A DNA stretch of 64,000 nucleotides from Herbinix sp. (GTDB taxonomy: Bacteria; Bacillota; Clostridia; Lachnospirales; Lachnospiraceae): contig JAQZBN010000015.1 of NCBI GenBank assembly GCA_029238935.1, forward strand, positions 1 to 64,000, in the 5' to 3' direction. The notes under the pieces are model-generated. The model was not told the origin of the DNA. It searched no databases and was given only the letters and a program-made list of their open reading frames with translations. The translations under genes were made by a program, and so were the position numbers. This document shows positions 53,556-63,195 of this stretch, piece after piece (position 1 is the first letter of the stretch; every line of letters starts with the position of its first letter).

Positions 53556-54062
53556 CTATATGAGACCATTCATCAAATGAACCGTTATTTTCTTTTGATC
53601 GGGATCAATATTTAAAATACATTCTTTGATCGATGGAAGTAATATTTCTTTATTCTCCGGTGTTTTTACAACATATACATCATTAGCAGCTGTGGTCAAT
53701 ACTTCGACTAAGATACCGAGTTCCTTACCATCGTCCGTAACAACAATAGAATTAATAATATCATAGATAAAGTACTCATCCGGTTCTAGCTTTACCGCAT
53801 TATCTCTGGTGATTAACAAATCCTTACCTCGATATTTTTCAACATCGTTGATATTATCAATCCCTTTAAACTTACAGATTACCATTTGCTTGAAAAATTT
53901 AACACCTTCTATTTCCATCGGGATTAAATCTTTCCCGGTATCAATAAATAAGTTCTTTAATACTTTAAAGCGATTCACATCATCTGTTGTAGGAAATACC
54001 TTCACTTCACCGCGGACACCATGGGTCGTGGTGATAACACCGACTCTAAGATAATCATTCAT
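53556..54062 (-). CDS. rimM: 16S rRNA processing protein RimM
   Basis: About 168 residues. N-terminal RimM domain ([20 protein letters not shown]) and PRC-barrel ([36 protein letters not shown]). Helps 30S head maturation around S19. ATG at 54062 chosen: AAAGGA nine bases upstream and the usual family beginning; the ORF-track start at 54095 adds 11 basic residues. Confidence 0.93.
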
Positions 54063-54175
54063 ATGCTTTTTTCCTTTACTTTTTTGTTCCTGCATTGAAA
54101 AAGAAGCTGACTACTATGTCAAATGACATAACAGACAGCCTCATTTAAAGCAGACTTAAAACTGCAACTAAGATT

Positions 54176-54406
54176 CTACTGCAGTATTTCGACTACTACT
54201 TTTTTATCATCCTTCGTTGCGGCTGCTTTCACTACAGTACGTATGGATTTTGCGATACGGCCTTGTTTTCCGATTACTTTACCCATATCATCGGCAGCAA
54301 CCTTTAATTCTACAACTATTGCTTTCTCGGTTTCCTTTTCCGTTACCACAACCTCATCGGGATGATCAACGAGTGATTTAGCAATTACTTCAACTAATTC
54401 CTTCAT
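54176..54406 (-). CDS. khpA: KhpA, small KH-domain RNA-binding protein
   Basis: 76 residues, a single KH domain with the GxxG loop in VIGKQGRIAKSIR. Pairs with KhpB in other Firmicutes to bind RNA and affect cell division. In the standard place between rpsP and rimM. RBS GGAGGTG. Confidence 0.93.
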   Translation of the reverse strand: MKELVEVIAKSLVDHPDEVVVTEKETEKAIVVELKVAADDMGKVIGKQGRIAKSIRTVVKAAATKDDKKVVVEILQ

Positions 54407-54423
54407 TTATCCACCTCCGATGA

Positions 54424-54666
54424 TTAAAGAATACCAGCAATCTTTAAAATTTTACCTACAGTATCTGTTGGTTGAGCGCCATTAGCTAACCATTTCTTTG
54501 CAGCTTCTGCATTAACATTGAAAGAACTTGGATTCTGAGTAGGATCATAAGTACCGATTTCCTCGATAAATCTACCATCTCTTGGTGTTCTGGAATCAGA
54601 AACTACTATTCTATAATAAGGAGCTTTTTTCTGTCCCATTCTCTTTAATCTGATTTTAACTGCCAT
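54424..54666 (-). CDS. rpsP: 30S ribosomal protein S16
   Basis: About 80 residues. [39 protein letters not shown] and an Ala/Lys-rich tail. ATG at 54666 with AAGGAGG; the ORF-track GTG (54675) is within that site. Confidence 0.97.
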
Positions 54667-54770
54667 TGTTTTCACCTCCTTAAATAATATAAATATTTAT
54701 TGTAATATGCTATAGGTTGTCTATGATTATTCTAACCAAAATCTAAGACTATAACATAACAATCACGAAA

Positions 54771-56114
54771 TTAAAGACCAAAAGGAAGCTTAAACTTACC
54801 TCGTTTTCCGCCTTTTCCCATCATTCCGGAAAATTGCTTCATCATCTTTTTGGACTGTTCAAATTGCTTTACTAATTTATTGACTTCACTGATGTCTACA
54901 CCGGCACCGGCTGCAATCCTCTTCTTGCGGGAAGGATTGATAATAGAAGGATTCGCTCTCTCCTGTTTTGTCATCGAATAGATGATAGCTTCTGTCATAG
55001 ATAAAGCATTTTCATCAATATCAACGTCTTTTAACTGACTACCCATTCCCGGAAGCATTCCAAGTAAATCGGTGAGTCCGCCCATTTTCTTTACCTGCTG
55101 CATCTGATCTAAGAAGTCATTAAAGTCAAACTCAGCTTTCTTCAGCTTCTTTTCTAATTCCTTCGCTTTAGTTTCATCAAAATCGGCCTGTGCTTTATCT
55201 ATTAAGGTTAAGATATCTCCCATACCAAGAATACGGGAAGCCATACGATCCGGATAGAATTGTTCTAAATCAGATAATTTCTCACCCATTCCGACATACA
55301 TAATTGGACAACCGGTCACAGAACGGATGGAAAGTGCAGCACCGCCTCGAGTATCACCATCTAATTTTGTTAAAATTACGCCATCTAAGGTCAGTTTTTG
55401 ATGAAACATTTCTGAAACATTAACCGCGTCCTGACCGGTCATAGCATCTACCACGAGCAGTGTCTGATGTACGGTTATATTTGCTTTTATATCTTTTAAT
55501 TCCTGCATCATGTCCTCATCGATATGAAGACGTCCGGCAGTATCTAACATAACAACATTAAAACCATTTTTTGCTGCATGTTCCATCGCAGCTTTTGCAA
55601 TGTTCACAGGTTTATGTTTATCTCCCATGGAAAATACACTAACACCCTGTTTATCCCCGTTAATTTGTAACTGATCAATCGCTGCAGGACGATAAATATC
55701 GCAGGCAACCAATAATGGTTTTCTTCCCTTTGATTTTAATTTACCGGCAAGTTTTGCAACGGTTGTAGTTTTACCAGCACCTTGTAAACCACACATCATA
55801 AGTACAGTGATTTCATTGGAAGGCAATAACTTTAATTCAACGGTTTCTTCTCCTAAAAGGTGAACCATCTCTTCGTTTACTATCTTAATTACCATCTGAC
55901 CAGGGGTAAGACTGTTAAGTACATCCTGTCCAACGGCTCGTTCTTGTACTGTAGCAACGAAATTTTTAACCACTTTAAAATTTACGTCGGCTTCTAGTAA
56001 AGCCATCTTAACTTCCTTCAATGCGGTTTTTACGTCAGCTTCAGAGAGACGTCCTTTACCTCGGAGGTTTTTAAATATGTTTTGCAGTTTATCTGATAGG
56101 TTGTCAAATGCCAT
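54771..56114 (-). CDS. ffh: Signal recognition particle GTPase Ffh
   Basis: 447 residues: N domain, G domain (GLQGAGKTTTVAKLAG, LLVACDIYRPAAIDQL, LDTAGRLHID, TKLDGDTRGGAAL) and a Met-rich M domain (MQQVKKMGGLTDLLGMLPG, MTEAIIYSMTKQER, MMKQFSGMMGKGGKRG). Targets membrane and secreted proteins co-translationally with 4.5S/scRNA, not found here. Six bases after ylxM. Confidence 0.97.
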   Translation of the reverse strand: MAFDNLSDKLQNIFKNLRGKGRLSEADVKTALKEVKMALLEADVNFKVVKNFVATVQERAVGQDVLNSLTPGQMVIKIVNEEMVHLLGEETVELKLLPSNEITVLMMCGLQGAGKTTTVAKLAGKLKSKGRKPLLVACDIYRPAAIDQLQINGDKQGVSVFSMGDKHKPVNIAKAAMEHAAKNGFNVVMLDTAGRLHIDEDMMQELKDIKANITVHQTLLVVDAMTGQDAVNVSEMFHQKLTLDGVILTKLDGDTRGGAALSIRSVTGCPIMYVGMGEKLSDLEQFYPDRMASRILGMGDILTLIDKAQADFDETKAKELEKKLKKAEFDFNDFLDQMQQVKKMGGLTDLLGMLPGMGSQLKDVDIDENALSMTEAIIYSMTKQERANPSIINPSRKKRIAAGAGVDISEVNKLVKQFEQSKKMMKQFSGMMGKGGKRGKFKLPFGL

Positions 56115-56120
56115 ATGCGA

Positions 56121-56495
56121 TCACAACTCCTTTAATATATCGTCTGCTAATGTATTAATATGATCTAGAAGGGTTAAGTCTTTAGTTGCATTCATGGAGC
56201 TTACGAGATCTTTAATCTGTTCTAATTTATTCTTTGCGGATTGAAAACGGCTAACCAAGGATAGTTTATTTTCATATTCCTTTAATTCCAAGCTACAGCG
56301 TTTCACAATATCATAGACGCCCTGCCTGCTTATGCCCTGCTCCAGAGCTATCTCACTAAGAGACAGATCATTAAGGACATAATCTTCAAAGATTTGTTTC
56401 TTATGTTCTTTTAGTAATTCACCATAAAAATCGAACAAAATCGATAACTGTACGATTTCATCCAATTTATCGATCTGTGGTACATTGTCTTTCAT
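56121..56495 (-). CDS. ylxM: YlxM-family helix-turn-helix protein
   Basis: 124 residues. Sigma-70 region-4-like helix-turn-helix: LFDFYGELLKEHKKQIFEDY, LSLSEIALEQGISRQGVYDIVKRC, then a coiled-coil tail. Cotranscribed with ffh in most Firmicutes; homologues stimulate Ffh/SRP assembly in streptococci. Its start is governed by the inverted repeat at 56502-56534, whose downstream arm contains the AGGTGG ribosome site. Confidence 0.92.
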   Translation of the reverse strand: MKDNVPQIDKLDEIVQLSILFDFYGELLKEHKKQIFEDYVLNDLSLSEIALEQGISRQGVYDIVKRCSLELKEYENKLSLVSRFQSAKNKLEQIKDLVSSMNATKDLTLLDHINTLADDILKEL

Positions 56496-56501
56496 AGAAA
56501 C

Positions 56502-56534
56502 ACCACCTGTAAAGTAATTTTCTTTACAGGTGGT
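56502..56534. promoter_or_regulatory. Perfect 13-bp inverted repeat over the ylxM start region
   Basis: ACCACCTGTAAAG, 7-base loop, CTTTACAGGTGGT. It begins at the base next to the -10 box and ends 6 bases before the ylxM ATG, covering both the expected transcription start and the Shine-Dalgarno. It could be a repressor site in DNA or, as RNA from the expected start, a 8-9 bp hairpin partly hiding the ribosome site. Confidence 0.8.
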
Positions 56535-56563
56535 AGTATACTTAAAATTTTATATTTTGTCAA
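56535..56563 (-). promoter_or_regulatory. Strong sigma-A promoter of ylxM-ffh
   Basis: Perfect TTGACA, 17-base spacer, TATACT; the -10 abuts the inverted repeat. Confidence 0.85.
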
Positions 56564-56587
56564 GCATTTTTTCATTGAATGAAATCT

Positions 56588-56968
56588 TTAATTTAAATCT
56601 TGCAATGCTTCTATAATAAGATGATATTCAACGGATAACATTTCATTCAAATGTTTTATAGTGGGGTATTCCTCCGAGCGAAGTGCTTCCATCATCTCGA
56701 AACATAATTTCTCCATTCGTCCAAATCCTAGATTAGCAGCAACGCCTTTTAATGTATGTAGATAAACAGCAGTTTCTTTATAGTCTTTCGAAAGCAAGGA
56801 CGTTTGGACGCCTTGAAAACTTTTATCCTGTATAAATTTCTTTAAAATATTTAGATAAAGGAGTTCATTTCCACCCAGTCTTACAAGGACGGATGGAACA
56901 TCGATACCTATAGATTTAAGATTTATAATATGATTATTGATGTCTATATCACACCTTTCTAATAAATA
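56588..56968 (-). CDS. HPt phosphotransfer domain, in frame after the hybrid kinase stop, no normal start
   Basis: The open frame begins immediately after the TAA of the hybrid kinase and in the same frame, and encodes 126 residues. GIDVPSVLVRLGGNELLYLN is the usual HPt opening, and TAVYLHTLKGVAANLGF contains the phospho-accepting His. No ATG or GTG occurs in the frame before the domain; the only listed start, a TTG at 56797, would remove half of it. An AAAGGTGTG lies just after the kinase stop. So the domain is either a C-terminal part of the kinase cut off by a mutation, made by stop read-through, or translated from a rare start (ATA/ATC/ATT). HPt identity is clear; the status as a working gene is not. 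Confidence 0.6.
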   Translation of the reverse strand, partial: YLLERCDIDINNHIINLKSIGIDVPSVLVRLGGNELLYLNILKKFIQDKSFQGVQTSLLSKDYKETAVYLHTLKGVAANLGFGRMEKLCFEMMEALRSEEYPTIKHLNEMLSVEYHLIIEALQDLN

Positions 56969-59155
56969 TTATAGCACAGTATAGAGTAAATCGTAAAACA
57001 ATTCAATATCAATCGGTTTTTCTATATGAAAATCCATTCCTGCTTCCATTGCAGCAGAGATATCTTCATTCCGATCACCTGCTGTCATCGCTATGATACA
57101 AATGCTGGTTGCATCAGGATGAAAAGACTGGCGAATTGCTTTCGTTGTATCATACCCGTTCAATTTTGGCATTTGGATATCCATTAATATAACATCATAA
57201 TAACCAGGGTTAGATTGCTCAAATAATTTAAGTGCTTCCAATCCATGATGTGCTGTTTCTATCAAAGCATTGGTGGTCTTAAGAAGCTCACAGGTAATTT
57301 CAAGATTAATCTCATTATCTTCCACAATAAGTATGCGATGACCTGTAAAATCATAATTCATGGATTTATCATGATGATGGGTCGGGGTCTCAACTACTGA
57401 ATATCCGGTTGAGATATCAAAATCTAATTCGATCACTGTCGTAGTTCCAATCCCCTGCTTACTGGTCACGTTGATACGACCTCCCATTAAGGTAACCAGA
57501 TTCTTTGTAATGGACATTCCTAATCCACTTCCGCCATACTTTTTAGCAATGGTACTATCCTCTTGCTCAAAAGGTTCATAAATATGCTTTAAAAACTCAT
57601 CACTCATTCCTATACCATTATCAGTAATAGTAAAACGAAATTGAGCTCGTCCAACACGCTTTTCAACTTCCTGAATGGTTAAGACCACTCTCCCTCCAGT
57701 GGGTGTGAACTTTAAAGAATTCGTTATTACATTAATTAAGATTTGATTTAATCGAACGGTATCACCGATGAGACAATCATCCTCTACATTGGAAGTATCC
57801 AGTACAAATTCTAATTGATTTAACTCCGCTTGGGTATTGATAATAATACACATAGCTTCAAGAAATTTTTGTAAGGAAAAGGGTTCTTTTGATATCGTTA
57901 ATTTATTACTATCAATTCGTGACATATCAAGGATATCATTAATTAAGGACAGGAGTTGCTTTGACGTCATGAACACCTTATCCAGATAGTTATTTAACTG
58001 ATTTCGATCCAAGATAGGATTGTATGCCATTTTTGTAAGCCCTATGATAGCATAAATTGGGGACCTGATCTCATGGCTCATATGAGATAAAAACTCCTTT
58101 TTTGTCTGATTCGCTTTTTGCGCATTCAATAACGCATCTTTTAATACCTGTTGTGTTTCCTTCTCCTTAGTTAAATCGGTAATCCAGAAGATATACTGAA
58201 GTTCATTCTGGTGATTCTGAATAGGGATCACACGATATCTTACCCAAATAAGCTGTTTTGTCTTTGAGTGATGAAAATTGCATTCATATTCAAACGTAGT
58301 TTCCAAGGGTTTCGTAAAGATTGTTTCGATTAATTCCTTTTCTTCATCTGCATGATAAAATAAATGCATAGGATTCTTCTGTAATGACTTATGATGTATA
58401 CCAAGAATACGATCCGTATTAGGTGATATATAATCCATTTGTTTGTTATTGAAATGATAAATCAGGAAAACATCATCAATACTCGATGTAATTAAACGGA
58501 ATAATTCCTCCCGGTATAATATACTCTTGTTTTTCATAGCCATTCGATATTCAAAGTAAATTGCGAGAATTATGATACATAAAGAAAGAGTTAAAGACAT
58601 CTCATTAGATATTAGAGAGATTTTCTGAGATTCCTTCGATAAGGAATTGATAGATTCCACCGATGTCGAAGCCATATGTTCTAATAATTCTTCTGTCGTA
58701 TCATATAAAGGAAATAACTGAGTCTCAATGATTGAAATAACTTCCAAGTATTCTTTGCTATGTAATAAAGTTAGAATGGTTTGTTGTATTTGATCGATTT
58801 TATCAAATTGTGTGACTAAATAGGAACCCATCGTCTTATCATTCTCTTCAAGAAATTGTATTAGGGGGTCTACCTTCTCATGATACTGCCGAATATACTC
58901 TTCCTCAGTAGGAACATCCGTATTTATGTCATAGGATAAGTTACGAATGTAATGAGATCGCATGTGATGTAATTCATATCGGATCTCCCATGCCGAATTG
59001 GTGATCGCATAGGTAGTTGTTGCCATTTCTTCAGTTATGCCACCCAGTGCAGTTATATTATAAATTGATGTGAAAAATGATAGGATGGAGATGATACTTA
59101 AAATAAAAGGTCCTATAAAGCTATATTCATAAAAACGTACTTTTTTATTATTCAA
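56969..59155 (-). CDS. Membrane hybrid sensor histidine kinase (PAS-HisKA-HATPase-REC)
   Basis: 728 residues. Two transmembrane helices (about 12-32 and 183-203) flank a ~150-residue helical extracellular sensor; then a PAS/PAC region (FRLITSSIDDVFLIYHF, FEYECNFHHSKTKQLIWVRY), HisKA with SHMSHEIRSPIYAIIG, HATPase (ITDNGIGMSD, GGSGLGMSITKNL) and a receiver domain with Asp in DVILMDIQMPKLNGYD and Lys in HIEKPI. TTG start with GGGGGT upstream. The HPt domain that normally ends such phosphorelays lies just past the TAA. No response regulator with an output domain is nearby, so the pathway is unknown. Confidence 0.88.
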   Translation of the reverse strand: MNNKKVRFYEYSFIGPFILSIISILSFFTSIYNITALGGITEEMATTTYAITNSAWEIRYELHHMRSHYIRNLSYDINTDVPTEEEYIRQYHEKVDPLIQFLEENDKTMGSYLVTQFDKIDQIQQTILTLLHSKEYLEVISIIETQLFPLYDTTEELLEHMASTSVESINSLSKESQKISLISNEMSLTLSLCIIILAIYFEYRMAMKNKSILYREELFRLITSSIDDVFLIYHFNNKQMDYISPNTDRILGIHHKSLQKNPMHLFYHADEEKELIETIFTKPLETTFEYECNFHHSKTKQLIWVRYRVIPIQNHQNELQYIFWITDLTKEKETQQVLKDALLNAQKANQTKKEFLSHMSHEIRSPIYAIIGLTKMAYNPILDRNQLNNYLDKVFMTSKQLLSLINDILDMSRIDSNKLTISKEPFSLQKFLEAMCIIINTQAELNQLEFVLDTSNVEDDCLIGDTVRLNQILINVITNSLKFTPTGGRVVLTIQEVEKRVGRAQFRFTITDNGIGMSDEFLKHIYEPFEQEDSTIAKKYGGSGLGMSITKNLVTLMGGRINVTSKQGIGTTTVIELDFDISTGYSVVETPTHHHDKSMNYDFTGHRILIVEDNEINLEITCELLKTTNALIETAHHGLEALKLFEQSNPGYYDVILMDIQMPKLNGYDTTKAIRQSFHPDATSICIIAMTAGDRNEDISAAMEAGMDFHIEKPIDIELFYDLLYTVL

Positions 59156-59294
59156 TTAGGTAACCCCCATACTGGAATATAGATAATCCAAAAATTTACA
59201 TTTTATGACACTAATATACCATAATATTACACATAATGTCAATGGGGGTGTTCCTATGTTAATAAAAGAAAGTTATGTTTTAGAATAATGTTAG

Positions 59295-59360
59295 AAATGC
59301 CATTCTACGCAGAGTAAATACTCTTTTGATAGGAGTAGTACCCTGCTTAGAATGACATTT
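59295..59360. repeat. Long imperfect inverted repeat between oadA and the hybrid kinase
   Basis: AAATG-C-CATTCT-AC-GCAG...CTGC-TT-AGAATG-A-CATTT, with further ACTC/GAGT pairing inside, about 66 bases. It lies 50 bases downstream of the oadA stop on the minus strand and probably ends that operon, though a T-run is better placed on the plus strand (CATTTTTTATG). Confidence 0.55.
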
Positions 59361-59409
59361 TTTATGCTTTAGCGTTTGTCTGTAACGAATAATTCAGTCA
59401 TAGAAAATC

Positions 59410-60822
59410 TTAAACGGGATAAGCTTTACTATTTGAATCAGCGTTTGTAACATCTATCCTAGTTTTTTGCGCTTGCCTGTATTTGAAGAAATCCATAGCT
59501 ACCTGAGGGAATAATGCATAGGATAATACATCCTCATCTTGTTCCTTCCAGTCAGCGATTTCTGCTTCTATTTTTTTCAACTCCGGCTCAATTAAGTCTG
59601 CCGGTCGACAAGTAATTGGTTTCTTATCACCGATTACTTTTTTCTGAACTTCTTTGTCAAACGGTTTCACCGTTTGGCCATATTCTCCGGAAAGAAGAGC
59701 TTTTGTTTCCTTCGTTACCATCTTGTAACGTTCACCTGCAAGTACATTAAGTACTGCCTGCGTACCAACAATCTGACTGGAAGGAGTTACCAACGGGGGT
59801 TCACCAAAATCTTTTCTTACTCTTGGAATTTCCTGCAATACATCATAATATCTATCTTCTGCTTTTTGCTCTTTTAACTGAGACACCAAATTGGATAACA
59901 TACCACCGGGTACCTGATATAGGAGAGTTTTAATATCTACACCCATAACTTTTGGATTTAATAAACCACTATCTAAGGCCTGATCCCGAAGTGGACGGAA
60001 ATAATCAGCAATCTCAGCTAATAATATCTGATCAAAACCAGTATCATAAGGGGTGCCTTTGAAGGTTTCAACCATAACTTCGGTAGCAGGTTGACTGGTA
60101 CCCATCGCAAATGGTGACATTGCTGTGTCAATGATGTCGCATCCTGCTTCTACCGCTTTTAGGTAAGTCATACCGCCTACACCGCTGGTATAGTGGGTAT
60201 GAAGGTCGATTGGGATTTTAACTGCGGATTTAAGAGTACTTACTAATGCAGTTGCCTCATATGGAACCAGAAGACCTGCCATATCCTTGATACAGATAGA
60301 GGAAGCACCAAGAGATTCAATCTTCTTTGCCATAGAAATATAATATTCTGGCGTATAGGCATCTCCTAAGGTATAGGAGATTGCTATTTGTGCATGACCA
60401 TTTTCTTTATTGGTTGCTTTTACAGCGCATTCTAAGTTTCGGATATCATTTAAAGCATCAAAGATACGTATGATGTCAATACCATTTGCTATTGATTTTT
60501 GAACGAAATAAGCTACAACATCGTCCGCATAATGGCGATATCCTAAGATATTCTGACCACGAAACAACATCTGAAGCTTTGTATTTTTAAAACCAGCTCT
60601 GATTTTTCTTAAACGTTCCCAAGGATCTTCTTTTAAGAAACGCAGGGATGCATCAAAAGTTGCTCCACCCCAACATTCTACTGCATGATAACCAACCTTA
60701 TCCATTGTTTCTAGAATGGGGAGCATCTGCTCCGTTGACATTCTGGTAGCAATCAATGACTGATGAGCATCACGCAATATGGTTTCGGTTATTTTAACCG
60801 GTCTTTTTATTTGTTCTGCCAT
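59410..60822 (-). CDS. oadA: Oxaloacetate decarboxylase alpha / transcarboxylase 5S-type subunit
   Basis: 470 residues, biotin-dependent carboxyltransferase. Metal and substrate motifs: TETILRDAHQSLIATRM, VECWGGATFDA, RGQNILGYRHYADDVV, catalytic Lys in SICIKDMAGLL, and metal His pair in IDLHTHYTSG. The chain ends after the PYC_OADA domain; no biotinyl domain is fused, the biotin carrier being a separate gene upstream. It would transfer CO2 between oxaloacetate/pyruvate and biotin. Annotated pumps would pair it with a beta subunit, which is absent here. RBS AGGAGGTAAGTC. Confidence 0.9.
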   Translation of the reverse strand: MAEQIKRPVKITETILRDAHQSLIATRMSTEQMLPILETMDKVGYHAVECWGGATFDASLRFLKEDPWERLRKIRAGFKNTKLQMLFRGQNILGYRHYADDVVAYFVQKSIANGIDIIRIFDALNDIRNLECAVKATNKENGHAQIAISYTLGDAYTPEYYISMAKKIESLGASSICIKDMAGLLVPYEATALVSTLKSAVKIPIDLHTHYTSGVGGMTYLKAVEAGCDIIDTAMSPFAMGTSQPATEVMVETFKGTPYDTGFDQILLAEIADYFRPLRDQALDSGLLNPKVMGVDIKTLLYQVPGGMLSNLVSQLKEQKAEDRYYDVLQEIPRVRKDFGEPPLVTPSSQIVGTQAVLNVLAGERYKMVTKETKALLSGEYGQTVKPFDKEVQKKVIGDKKPITCRPADLIEPELKKIEAEIADWKEQDEDVLSYALFPQVAMDFFKYRQAQKTRIDVTNADSNSKAYPV

Positions 60823-60860
60823 GACTTACCTCCTGTTATTATAAAACACGAATGATTGCT

Positions 60861-61289
60861 TTAACTTAATGTTACAAGAACAGTACCTGCTTCTACAGTT
60901 TGGCCTGCAGTTACATTAATACTTGCAACTGTTCCATCCTGAGGTGCAACGATTTCATTCTCCATCTTCATGGCTTCCAGAATTAAGATGACTTCTCCTC
61001 TTTTTACGGTTTGACCTTCGCTGGCTTTGATATTTAATATCTTACCAGGCATAGGAGCATTAATCTTAACACTTCCCGTAGCGCCAGATGATTTCGGTGC
61101 AGCGGCAGGTTTTGCTTCTTGAACAGGAGCAGCACTTGGTGTCGAAACAGGTGTAGGAGCAGCTACTTTTACAGGAGCTGCAACAGGAGCCTTTGCAGTT
61201 ACGCTGGATGCAGCATGAGCTGCTGCTGTACTCTCTTCAACAGAAACTTCATAGGTATTACCATTAACTGTTATTGTATAATATTTCAT
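60861..61289 (-). CDS. Biotin carboxyl carrier protein of the decarboxylase/transcarboxylase
   Basis: 142 residues. A short N-terminal beta segment ([18 protein letters not shown]), an Ala/Pro/Val-rich flexible linker (about 22-70) and a biotinyl domain with the biotin lysine in [12 protein letters not shown]. It shuttles carboxyl groups between the MmdA-type and OadA-type subunits. RBS AAGGAGG; 38 bases upstream of oadA. Confidence 0.93.
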
Positions 61290-61355
61290 TATAAAATCCT
61301 CCTTGTATGACAGGCCTACATGACGCCCGCCTTATCTTATTCATTAAGTATTCCG

Positions 61356-61742
61356 TTATTTATTTGAATTCACTTTACGAATGGAACGAACGACTAATCC
61401 ATCAGCAGGTACGAAGTCTCCGAAAGATGCGGTAATAGCAGCTGTAATTACCGCTACTAACTCGTTATCATCGATAAGTTCATTTTCTTCCTGCTCCACT
61501 ATTTGAGCTATGACATTATCCATAAAAGCCTGGTTGTTTTGATCTGACTTTGTCTTGGTAGCTTGTGAGCCAGGAAAAACCTTTACTAAATAAACCAAAA
61601 GAATAGTAAGTAATATAATAACAATAGAAATTCCCATACCAATTAAAATATAGAAGGAATTTTCTTCAAGGCGTTCAACCAGGGAGTTCGCGGAGAGCAT
61701 TGCTATCGTTCTATTCATTATTCCGGACTGTAATATTCCCAT
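61356..61742 (-). CDS. OadG-family small membrane subunit
   Basis: 128 residues: a transmembrane helix (about 31-54, ILIGMGISIVIILLTILLVY) and a charged cytoplasmic tail (SDQNNQAFMDNVIAQIVEQEENELIDDNELVAVITAAI) typical of OadG/MmdD gamma subunits of sodium-pumping decarboxylases, which tether the alpha subunit to the membrane beta subunit. The tail ending VRSIRKVNSN resembles OadG of Clostridia. RBS GAGGTGAT. Confidence 0.8.
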   Translation of the reverse strand: MGILQSGIMNRTIAMLSANSLVERLEENSFYILIGMGISIVIILLTILLVYLVKVFPGSQATKTKSDQNNQAFMDNVIAQIVEQEENELIDDNELVAVITAAITASFGDFVPADGLVVRSIRKVNSNK

Positions 61743-61758
61743 TTTTTATCACCTCATC

Positions 61759-63195
61759 CTATCTCGTTCCATGTTTTTTTACAGGTCGGGTTTCGCTCTT
61801 GGTAAATAACATCTCGAAAGAATATATTAAATGTTTTCTCACTGTGGATGGTTCTATGATACTATCCACATATCCACGACTAGCTGCAGCAATTGCACTG
61901 GACTGCAACGTAGCATAGTCAGCGGCCTTTTCTTTGATTACCTCACCTTTTTCACCTGCATACATGATCTGTGCAGCTAGATCAGCATTCATCATACCAA
62001 TTTCAGCGCTTGGTAATGCAAATACCATATCTGCACCAATATGTTTCGAGTTCATAGTAATGTAAGCACTGCCATAAGCTTCTCCAATAATCAGATTTAC
62101 CTTTGGCACGGTAGCACTGGTGAATGCATAGGTAAGTTTTGCACAAGCTTCTGCAATCGTTTTTTCTTCCTCTACGGTTGCTTTATAACCATTTACATTA
62201 GTAAGGGTTACAACAGGAATATGAAATGCGTCACAGAATTTAACAAAACGTTCTGCTTTTAGGCATCCGGCAGTCGTTAAGGAGCCATCAAAACGATCAG
62301 TTACTTTTCCTTCGCTATCCAACACTTCAGTACGATTTGCAACGGCTCCGATGGTAACACCGTTAAGACGAATGAAACCCGTAACCATATCCTTAGCATA
62401 CTCAGATTTTATTTCAAAGAAATAATGATCATCGGAGAGATCAATAAGGGCCTTCTTCGTATCCCCTAATTCTGTTTCCAGTGCAGGAACTAATCGATTT
62501 AAATCGTCGTTACACTCATCAAAAGAAGCATCATCATCATTGCTAGCCGGAAGTATGGTAATAAGATCACGAATTCTATCTAACACATCGTTTTCTGTGG
62601 CTCCAACAAAATCAACCATACCGGACTTAGCTTGAAATGTTGCAGAGGAGGTATCTAATTTTTCCTTATAATTTTTATCTAAAGTATTCGGAGAATTCAC
62701 ATACAGTTTTGCATTCTTTGCTTCCATAAAGGTAAAATCACTTAGGGATGCAAGAATAGCTAAACCACCGCCGGAATTTCCAAAGACAGCAGTTATCTGT
62801 GGTATTACTCCGGAAGCCATAACCTTCTTCGTATAAATTTCGCCAAAACCCTGTAGTGCATCGGTTGCTTCCTGAAGTCTTAGTCCTGCACAGTCAATGA
62901 TTCCAATGACCGGAGCCCCAACTTTTAGTGCAAGATCATAAATATGTGCTATTTTCTTCGCGTGCATTTCACCGACAGACCCGCCGAGTGCTGACGCATC
63001 CTGGCTATACACATAAACCAGGTTACCATCAATCACGCCATAACCGGTTATCACGCCGTCAGCAGGAACTTCTTTCTGCTGTAAATTAAAGTCTGTACTC
63101 CTTTTTGTTACATAAGCGCCGACTTCAACAAAACTATTGTCGTCAAGCAAAGAAGTAATTCTTTCTCTAGCTGACAGTTGTGCTGTATTACTCAT
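61759..63195 (-). CDS. mmdA: Methylmalonyl-CoA decarboxylase alpha / transcarboxylase 12S-type carboxyltransferase
   Basis: 478 residues with the two crotonase-like halves of acyl-CoA carboxyltransferases: SARERITSLLDDNSFVEV, GGSVGEMHAKKIAHIYDLA, NSGGGLAILASLSDF in the first; GSLTTAGCLKAERFVKFCD, TLTNVNGYKA, GEAYGSAYITMNSKHIGADM and ALPSAEIGMMNADLAAQI in the second. Slightly shorter than the usual ~510. Moves CO2 from an acyl-CoA (methylmalonyl-CoA likely) to biotin. First gene of the operon, with its own promoter and GGAGGG ribosome site. Confidence 0.88.
   Translation of the reverse strand: MSNTAQLSARERITSLLDDNSFVEVGAYVTKRSTDFNLQQKEVPADGVITGYGVIDGNLVYVYSQDASALGGSVGEMHAKKIAHIYDLALKVGAPVIGIIDCAGLRLQEATDALQGFGEIYTKKVMASGVIPQITAVFGNSGGGLAILASLSDFTFMEAKNAKLYVNSPNTLDKNYKEKLDTSSATFQAKSGMVDFVGATENDVLDRIRDLITILPASNDDDASFDECNDDLNRLVPALETELGDTKKALIDLSDDHYFFEIKSEYAKDMVTGFIRLNGVTIGAVANRTEVLDSEGKVTDRFDGSLTTAGCLKAERFVKFCDAFHIPVVTLTNVNGYKATVEEEKTIAEACAKLTYAFTSATVPKVNLIIGEAYGSAYITMNSKHIGADMVFALPSAEIGMMNADLAAQIMYAGEKGEVIKEKAADYATLQSSAIAAASRGYVDSIIEPSTVRKHLIYSFEMLFTKSETRPVKKHGTR

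Follow-up and report, generated by a model that had tools for sequence, protein, structure and literature searches.

In the hybrid kinases BarA and ArcB, domains follow one another in the order HK-REC-HPt. HptB of Pseudomonas aeruginosa (7c1i) is a single HPt domain, a helical bundle with an HTLKG motif. Weak translation starts have been described in the Bacillota, in Staphylococcus aureus: the AUA/AUU starts of ccpN, citZ and cvfC1, which carry an extended Shine-Dalgarno sequence, reach about 10-30% of the expression obtained with AUG, and AUA is the start codon of infC; the codons measured did not include AUC (PMC13009471). The locus described here lies in a stretch of 64,000 nucleotides (the window) of contig JAQZBN010000015.1 from Herbinix sp., a genome for which a single draft assembly (157 contigs, contamination estimate 8%) is the sole source.

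Along the DNA, the domain order of this locus is that of BarA and ArcB, but in all orthologues, and probably in the window too, the HPt is a gene of its own and not a domain of the kinase. The window HPt (about 117-119 aa) is likewise a single domain with the HTLKG motif and the helical bundle of HptB (TM 0.73-0.75); it differs from HptB in sequence (23% identity), in its position directly behind the presumed partner kinase and in having no canonical start codon. Like infC, ccpN, citZ and cvfC1 of S. aureus, it has a strong extended Shine-Dalgarno sequence followed by a weak AUH codon, here a candidate start. However, the S. aureus sites were mapped by ribosome profiling and are conserved for infC, ccpN and cvfC1 (PMC13009471), whereas the window HPt start is read from the sequence of one genome. 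We give a probability of about two in three to the reading that this is a two-gene phosphorelay operon, composed of an HK-REC kinase and a free-standing HPt in which a weak ATC or ATA start would have replaced ATG.

The kinase part of the locus comprises:

59213..59242, minus strand: TTGACA-18-TATATT, a promoter-like site upstream of the kinase, found by consensus scan
59155-56969, minus strand: hybrid histidine kinase ORF, TTG start, 728 aa, own TAA stop
56969..56971, minus strand: TAA, the normal stop codon of the kinase; 7/7 orthologous kinases end no more than a few residues away from it

Pfam matches to HisKA, HATPase_c and Response_reg were obtained in the kinase, which is laid out as a membrane-bound protein with a 4HB-like sensor, PAS, HisKA, HATPase_c and REC. 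Its N-terminal region carries about 150 extra aa with a weak 4HB_MCP-like match (window 58600-59155, minus strand). This region is absent from the seven orthologues, which start with a short membrane segment, and reflects either a gain in the window lineage or a loss in the orthologues.

As read from the window ORF, the C-terminus of the kinase is ...LLYTVL-TAA. Past this TAA the frame runs through 126 further codons to a second TAA at 56590-56588 (minus strand), and an intact HPt domain follows in this same frame, with the motifs quoted in the original prediction. As it had also said, the ORF reading gives neither ATG or GTG nor a usable TTG ahead of the domain; TTG and ATG first appear in frame within it. 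The features of this second part are:

56948..56960, minus strand: AGAAAGGTGTGAT, an extended Shine-Dalgarno whose duplex with the 16S 3′ end is predicted at -13.5 to -14.2 kcal/mol
56945..56947, minus strand: ATA, candidate start, 6 nt after AGG and two codons upstream of ATC
56939..56941, minus strand: ATC, candidate start, aligned with the ATG of the orthologues with no indel
56588..56947, minus strand: probable free-standing HPt gene, 119 codons long if it starts at ATA and 117 if at ATC, supported by Pfam PF01627, orthologues, AlphaFold and a PDB match

The continuation matches Hpt PF01627 with an E value of 8.9e-8 (32.7 bits, curated cut-off 24.6). The AlphaFold model (pLDDT 95.4) has seven helices, which begin at residue 3 and make up a complete helical HPt. 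Its closest PDB folds are HPts, HptB being first (E about 0.002, probability 1.00). His64, the phosphorylatable His of HTLKG, is invariant across the window HPt and its orthologues, and so are the HTLKG..AANLGF residues, all kept in the window HPt.

A kinase search of 60 relatives yielded seven clear orthologues, all from the same genus (Mobilitalea/Herbinix). These kinases are 41-52% identical to the query, have open frames of 569-587 aa and end at query residue 724-728, just after REC. Each of the seven loci has the HPt in an ORF apart from the kinase, with a start codon of its own, and in none is it fused; as in the window, a stop separates HK-REC from HPt. The HPt starts with ATG in six loci (L008-L013; in L009 the contig end cuts the HPt after about 38 residues) and with TTG in L007 (Mobilitalea sibirica). 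The gene order oadA-kinase-HPt-ylxM-ffh is common to all loci as far as the contigs reach. A profile search of 34 genomes of the genus detected exactly one such HPt gene in eight, the same eight that have the kinase locus. Further afield, 76/80 related HPts in GTDB genomes lie in short free-standing ORFs and 4/80 in long frames (five of the 80 loci belong to genomes already among the orthologues); a similar kinase is directly upstream in 13/80, five genus members among them. Because the orthologous loci are separate, gene order is shared and 76/80 related HPts are free-standing, the TAA at 56971-56969 is, on the sequences compared, the ancestral kinase stop and not a recent mutation, the HPt having been separate before the window lineage arose.

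These loci bear directly on the original prediction, which held that one in-frame TAA had cut the HPt from a hybrid kinase in which REC and HPt normally form one chain. Such a one-chain layout does not hold for this family, and the orthologues show the same stop, with an HPt that has a start codon of its own. A recent nonsense mutation splitting an ancestral HK-REC-HPt chain has in its favour the BarA- and ArcB-like layout and the four related HPts in long frames. We nevertheless find it scarcely credible, as all orthologues are already split at the same place after REC with separate HPt starts, HPts of the same family are free-standing, and the frames of HPt and kinase mostly (5/7) differ. 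A one-chain ancestor is refuted at the sampling depth used.

The frame of the HPt relative to the kinase is +2 in those five orthologues and 0 in the other two (L010 and L011), and the shared frame of the window is a coincidence, one to be expected in roughly a third of cases. This is also what counts against programmed read-through of the TAA, another proposal of the original prediction, which would produce a kinase-REC-HPt fusion alone or beside a free HPt. The window frame is indeed open for 126 codons beyond the stop, but five orthologues have the HPt in another frame, and the two with the same frame have additional stops and the HPt's own ATG between kinase and HPt. In addition, the linker holds a Shine-Dalgarno sequence and not conserved protein sequence, and a U directly after UAA is unfavourable for read-through. 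We regard read-through as very improbable. The best support goes to the third proposal, an HPt that is translated separately and uses a rare start codon.

In one locus, L016 (genome G028, 1501-2709), only the HK (PAS-HisKA-HATPase) is found at the same syntenic place; REC and HPt are both absent, the whole relay having been lost and a plain kinase left.

The sequence AGAAAGGTGTGAT, missed by the original prediction, lies between kinase stop and HPt and is followed by ATA GAC ATC. The kinase stop lies 22 nt upstream of this ribosome-binding site. Duplex energies were calculated with a standard 16S tail; a search for the 16S 3′ end with three patterns in four genomes gave no match. The -13.5 kcal/mol of the window HPt is reached by only 0.7% (minus strand) and 0.14% (plus strand) of window ATA triplets. 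By comparison, ATG-starting orthologues range from -7.3 to -12.9 kcal/mol, the TTG-starting L007 has -13.6 kcal/mol and infC of the window genome -13.0 kcal/mol. Among the HPts, the strongest duplexes are therefore those of the two with weak starts, which fits a strong Shine-Dalgarno compensating a weak start codon, in two cases only. With this site ahead of ATA/ATC and no canonical start, the window HPt has the configuration of an AUH gene. The non-canonical start is not conserved: the relatives have ATG (six) or TTG (one).

Between the two candidates, we would slightly prefer ATC, because in the ungapped alignment of protein N-termini it coincides with the orthologues' ATG: its distance from the conserved V17 position is 15 codons, the same as for the ATG of six orthologues, whereas ATA requires two extra codons. 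The DNA alignment of the start region is too diverged, and partly mis-anchored, for this choice. In the strongest register the aligned spacing of ATC is 9 nt and that of ATA 3; the AGGTG register gives 12 for ATC and 6 for ATA. In other window genes spacing peaks at 5-9 with a mode of 7, and neither codon is ideal. The infC context GGAGGTG...ATT AGC GAT TTA ATG is conserved in the genus (L131, L124-L135), window genome included, and the classical AUU start of infC is probably used there; a genome of the same order, G043 (L135), has ATA at the infC start position. Since this context shows ATT and ATA, starts of the AUC/AUA type are plausible in the clade.

The same observations could be read differently. 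If the HPt were a young pseudogene, still intact-looking after recent loss of its start codon, the absence of ATG, GTG and TTG and the non-optimal spacing of both ATA and ATC would be expected, and G028 shows that REC and HPt can be lost at this locus. The strong Shine-Dalgarno has, however, been kept, 119 codons contain no stop or frameshift, and the motif residues are intact. Rates were compared through identity ratios, codon-position differences and branch lengths instead of dN/dS, since every pair had third-position differences of about 0.6. The HPt is 35-48% and the kinase 41-52% identical to the orthologues. Identity in window pairs versus other pairs is 0.40 versus 0.43 for the HPt and 0.46 versus 0.50 for the kinase, lower by the same factor, so that the HPt/kinase ratio resembles that of the relatives. 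Differences by codon position still rank 2<1<3, and on a fixed tree the window tip branch takes 18.6% of tree length for the HPt and 15.5% for the kinase. Second-position differences in the HPt are slightly higher in window pairs (0.35 versus 0.29), a point in favour of decay. A long-dead HPt is unlikely, as similar HPt and kinase rates, the complete predicted fold and the intact HTLKG speak against it; the suggestion of the original prediction that the domain is still under selection agrees with the conserved residues, the kinase-like rates and the predicted fold. A recent start loss is possible, and the seven orthologues, at 35-52% identity, are too distant for dating the loss of ATG; on balance we consider the young pseudogene unlikely.

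We hold it rather improbable, too, that a sequencing or assembly error conceals an ATG start and a fully ordinary gene. The sequence comes from one draft assembly, and a single base change would turn ATC or ATA into ATG. On the other hand, no further signs of error are seen nearby, and kinase, HPt, ylxM and ffh all have intact reading frames.

Under the preferred reading, an operon with a weakly started HPt, kinase and HPt would be co-transcribed from the promoter-like site at 59242-59213. In the window genome the HPt start would have changed from ATG to a weak codon, most likely ATC at 56939-56941 or else ATA at 56945-56947, at which the strong extended Shine-Dalgarno would place ribosomes. 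Termination-reinitiation by ribosomes finishing the kinase may help. Use of AUC or AUA would make HPt at a reduced level. The kinase would phosphorylate its own REC, from which phosphate would pass to the free HPt and then to a response regulator.

Downstream of the HPt gene, a conserved element was observed:

56501-56563, minus strand: ylxM-ffh leader, promoter TTGACA-17-TATACT, then a hairpin at the expected transcript start

The hairpin, CCACCTGTAAAG-N7-CTTTACAGGTGG, is perfect, folds as RNA with -20.9 kcal/mol (z -4.25) and contains the ylxM Shine-Dalgarno inside its 3′ arm. Of 34 genomes of the genus, 21 contain a single exact copy, against 0/27 outside it; the reversed control sequence had no matches. 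With up to two changes allowed, the hairpin is present at the same place in 28/30 ylxM loci, with a 7-nt loop of variable sequence. A recurrent C-to-T change in the left arm leaves a G-U pair in place, while GGTG to GGCG breaks an A-U pair. An Rfam search of 54000-62000, hairpin included, returned no match. YlxM is a putative DNA-binding protein, and the element could be an RNA sequestering the Shine-Dalgarno or a DNA operator, its arms being too conserved for telling the two apart. This genus-wide hairpin is more striking than the HPt start and may be worth more attention.

As far as their sequence tells, kinase and HPt form a phosphorelay operon of the ordinary sort, and the HPt start codon is a modest curiosity. 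The locus carries the lesson that a same-frame stop between two domains is no sign of gene breakage when relatives have two genes. It also illustrates that gene callers scanning ATG, GTG and TTG find no start for this 119-codon HPt, and that such a gene can be missed. We suggest, tentatively, that the HPt step may be throttled in this lineage by AUC/AUA in place of ATG under a compensating Shine-Dalgarno, with HPt supply following IF3 and growth state. If initiation at AUC or AUA proves true, the window HPt would be among the few non-infC candidates in Clostridia.
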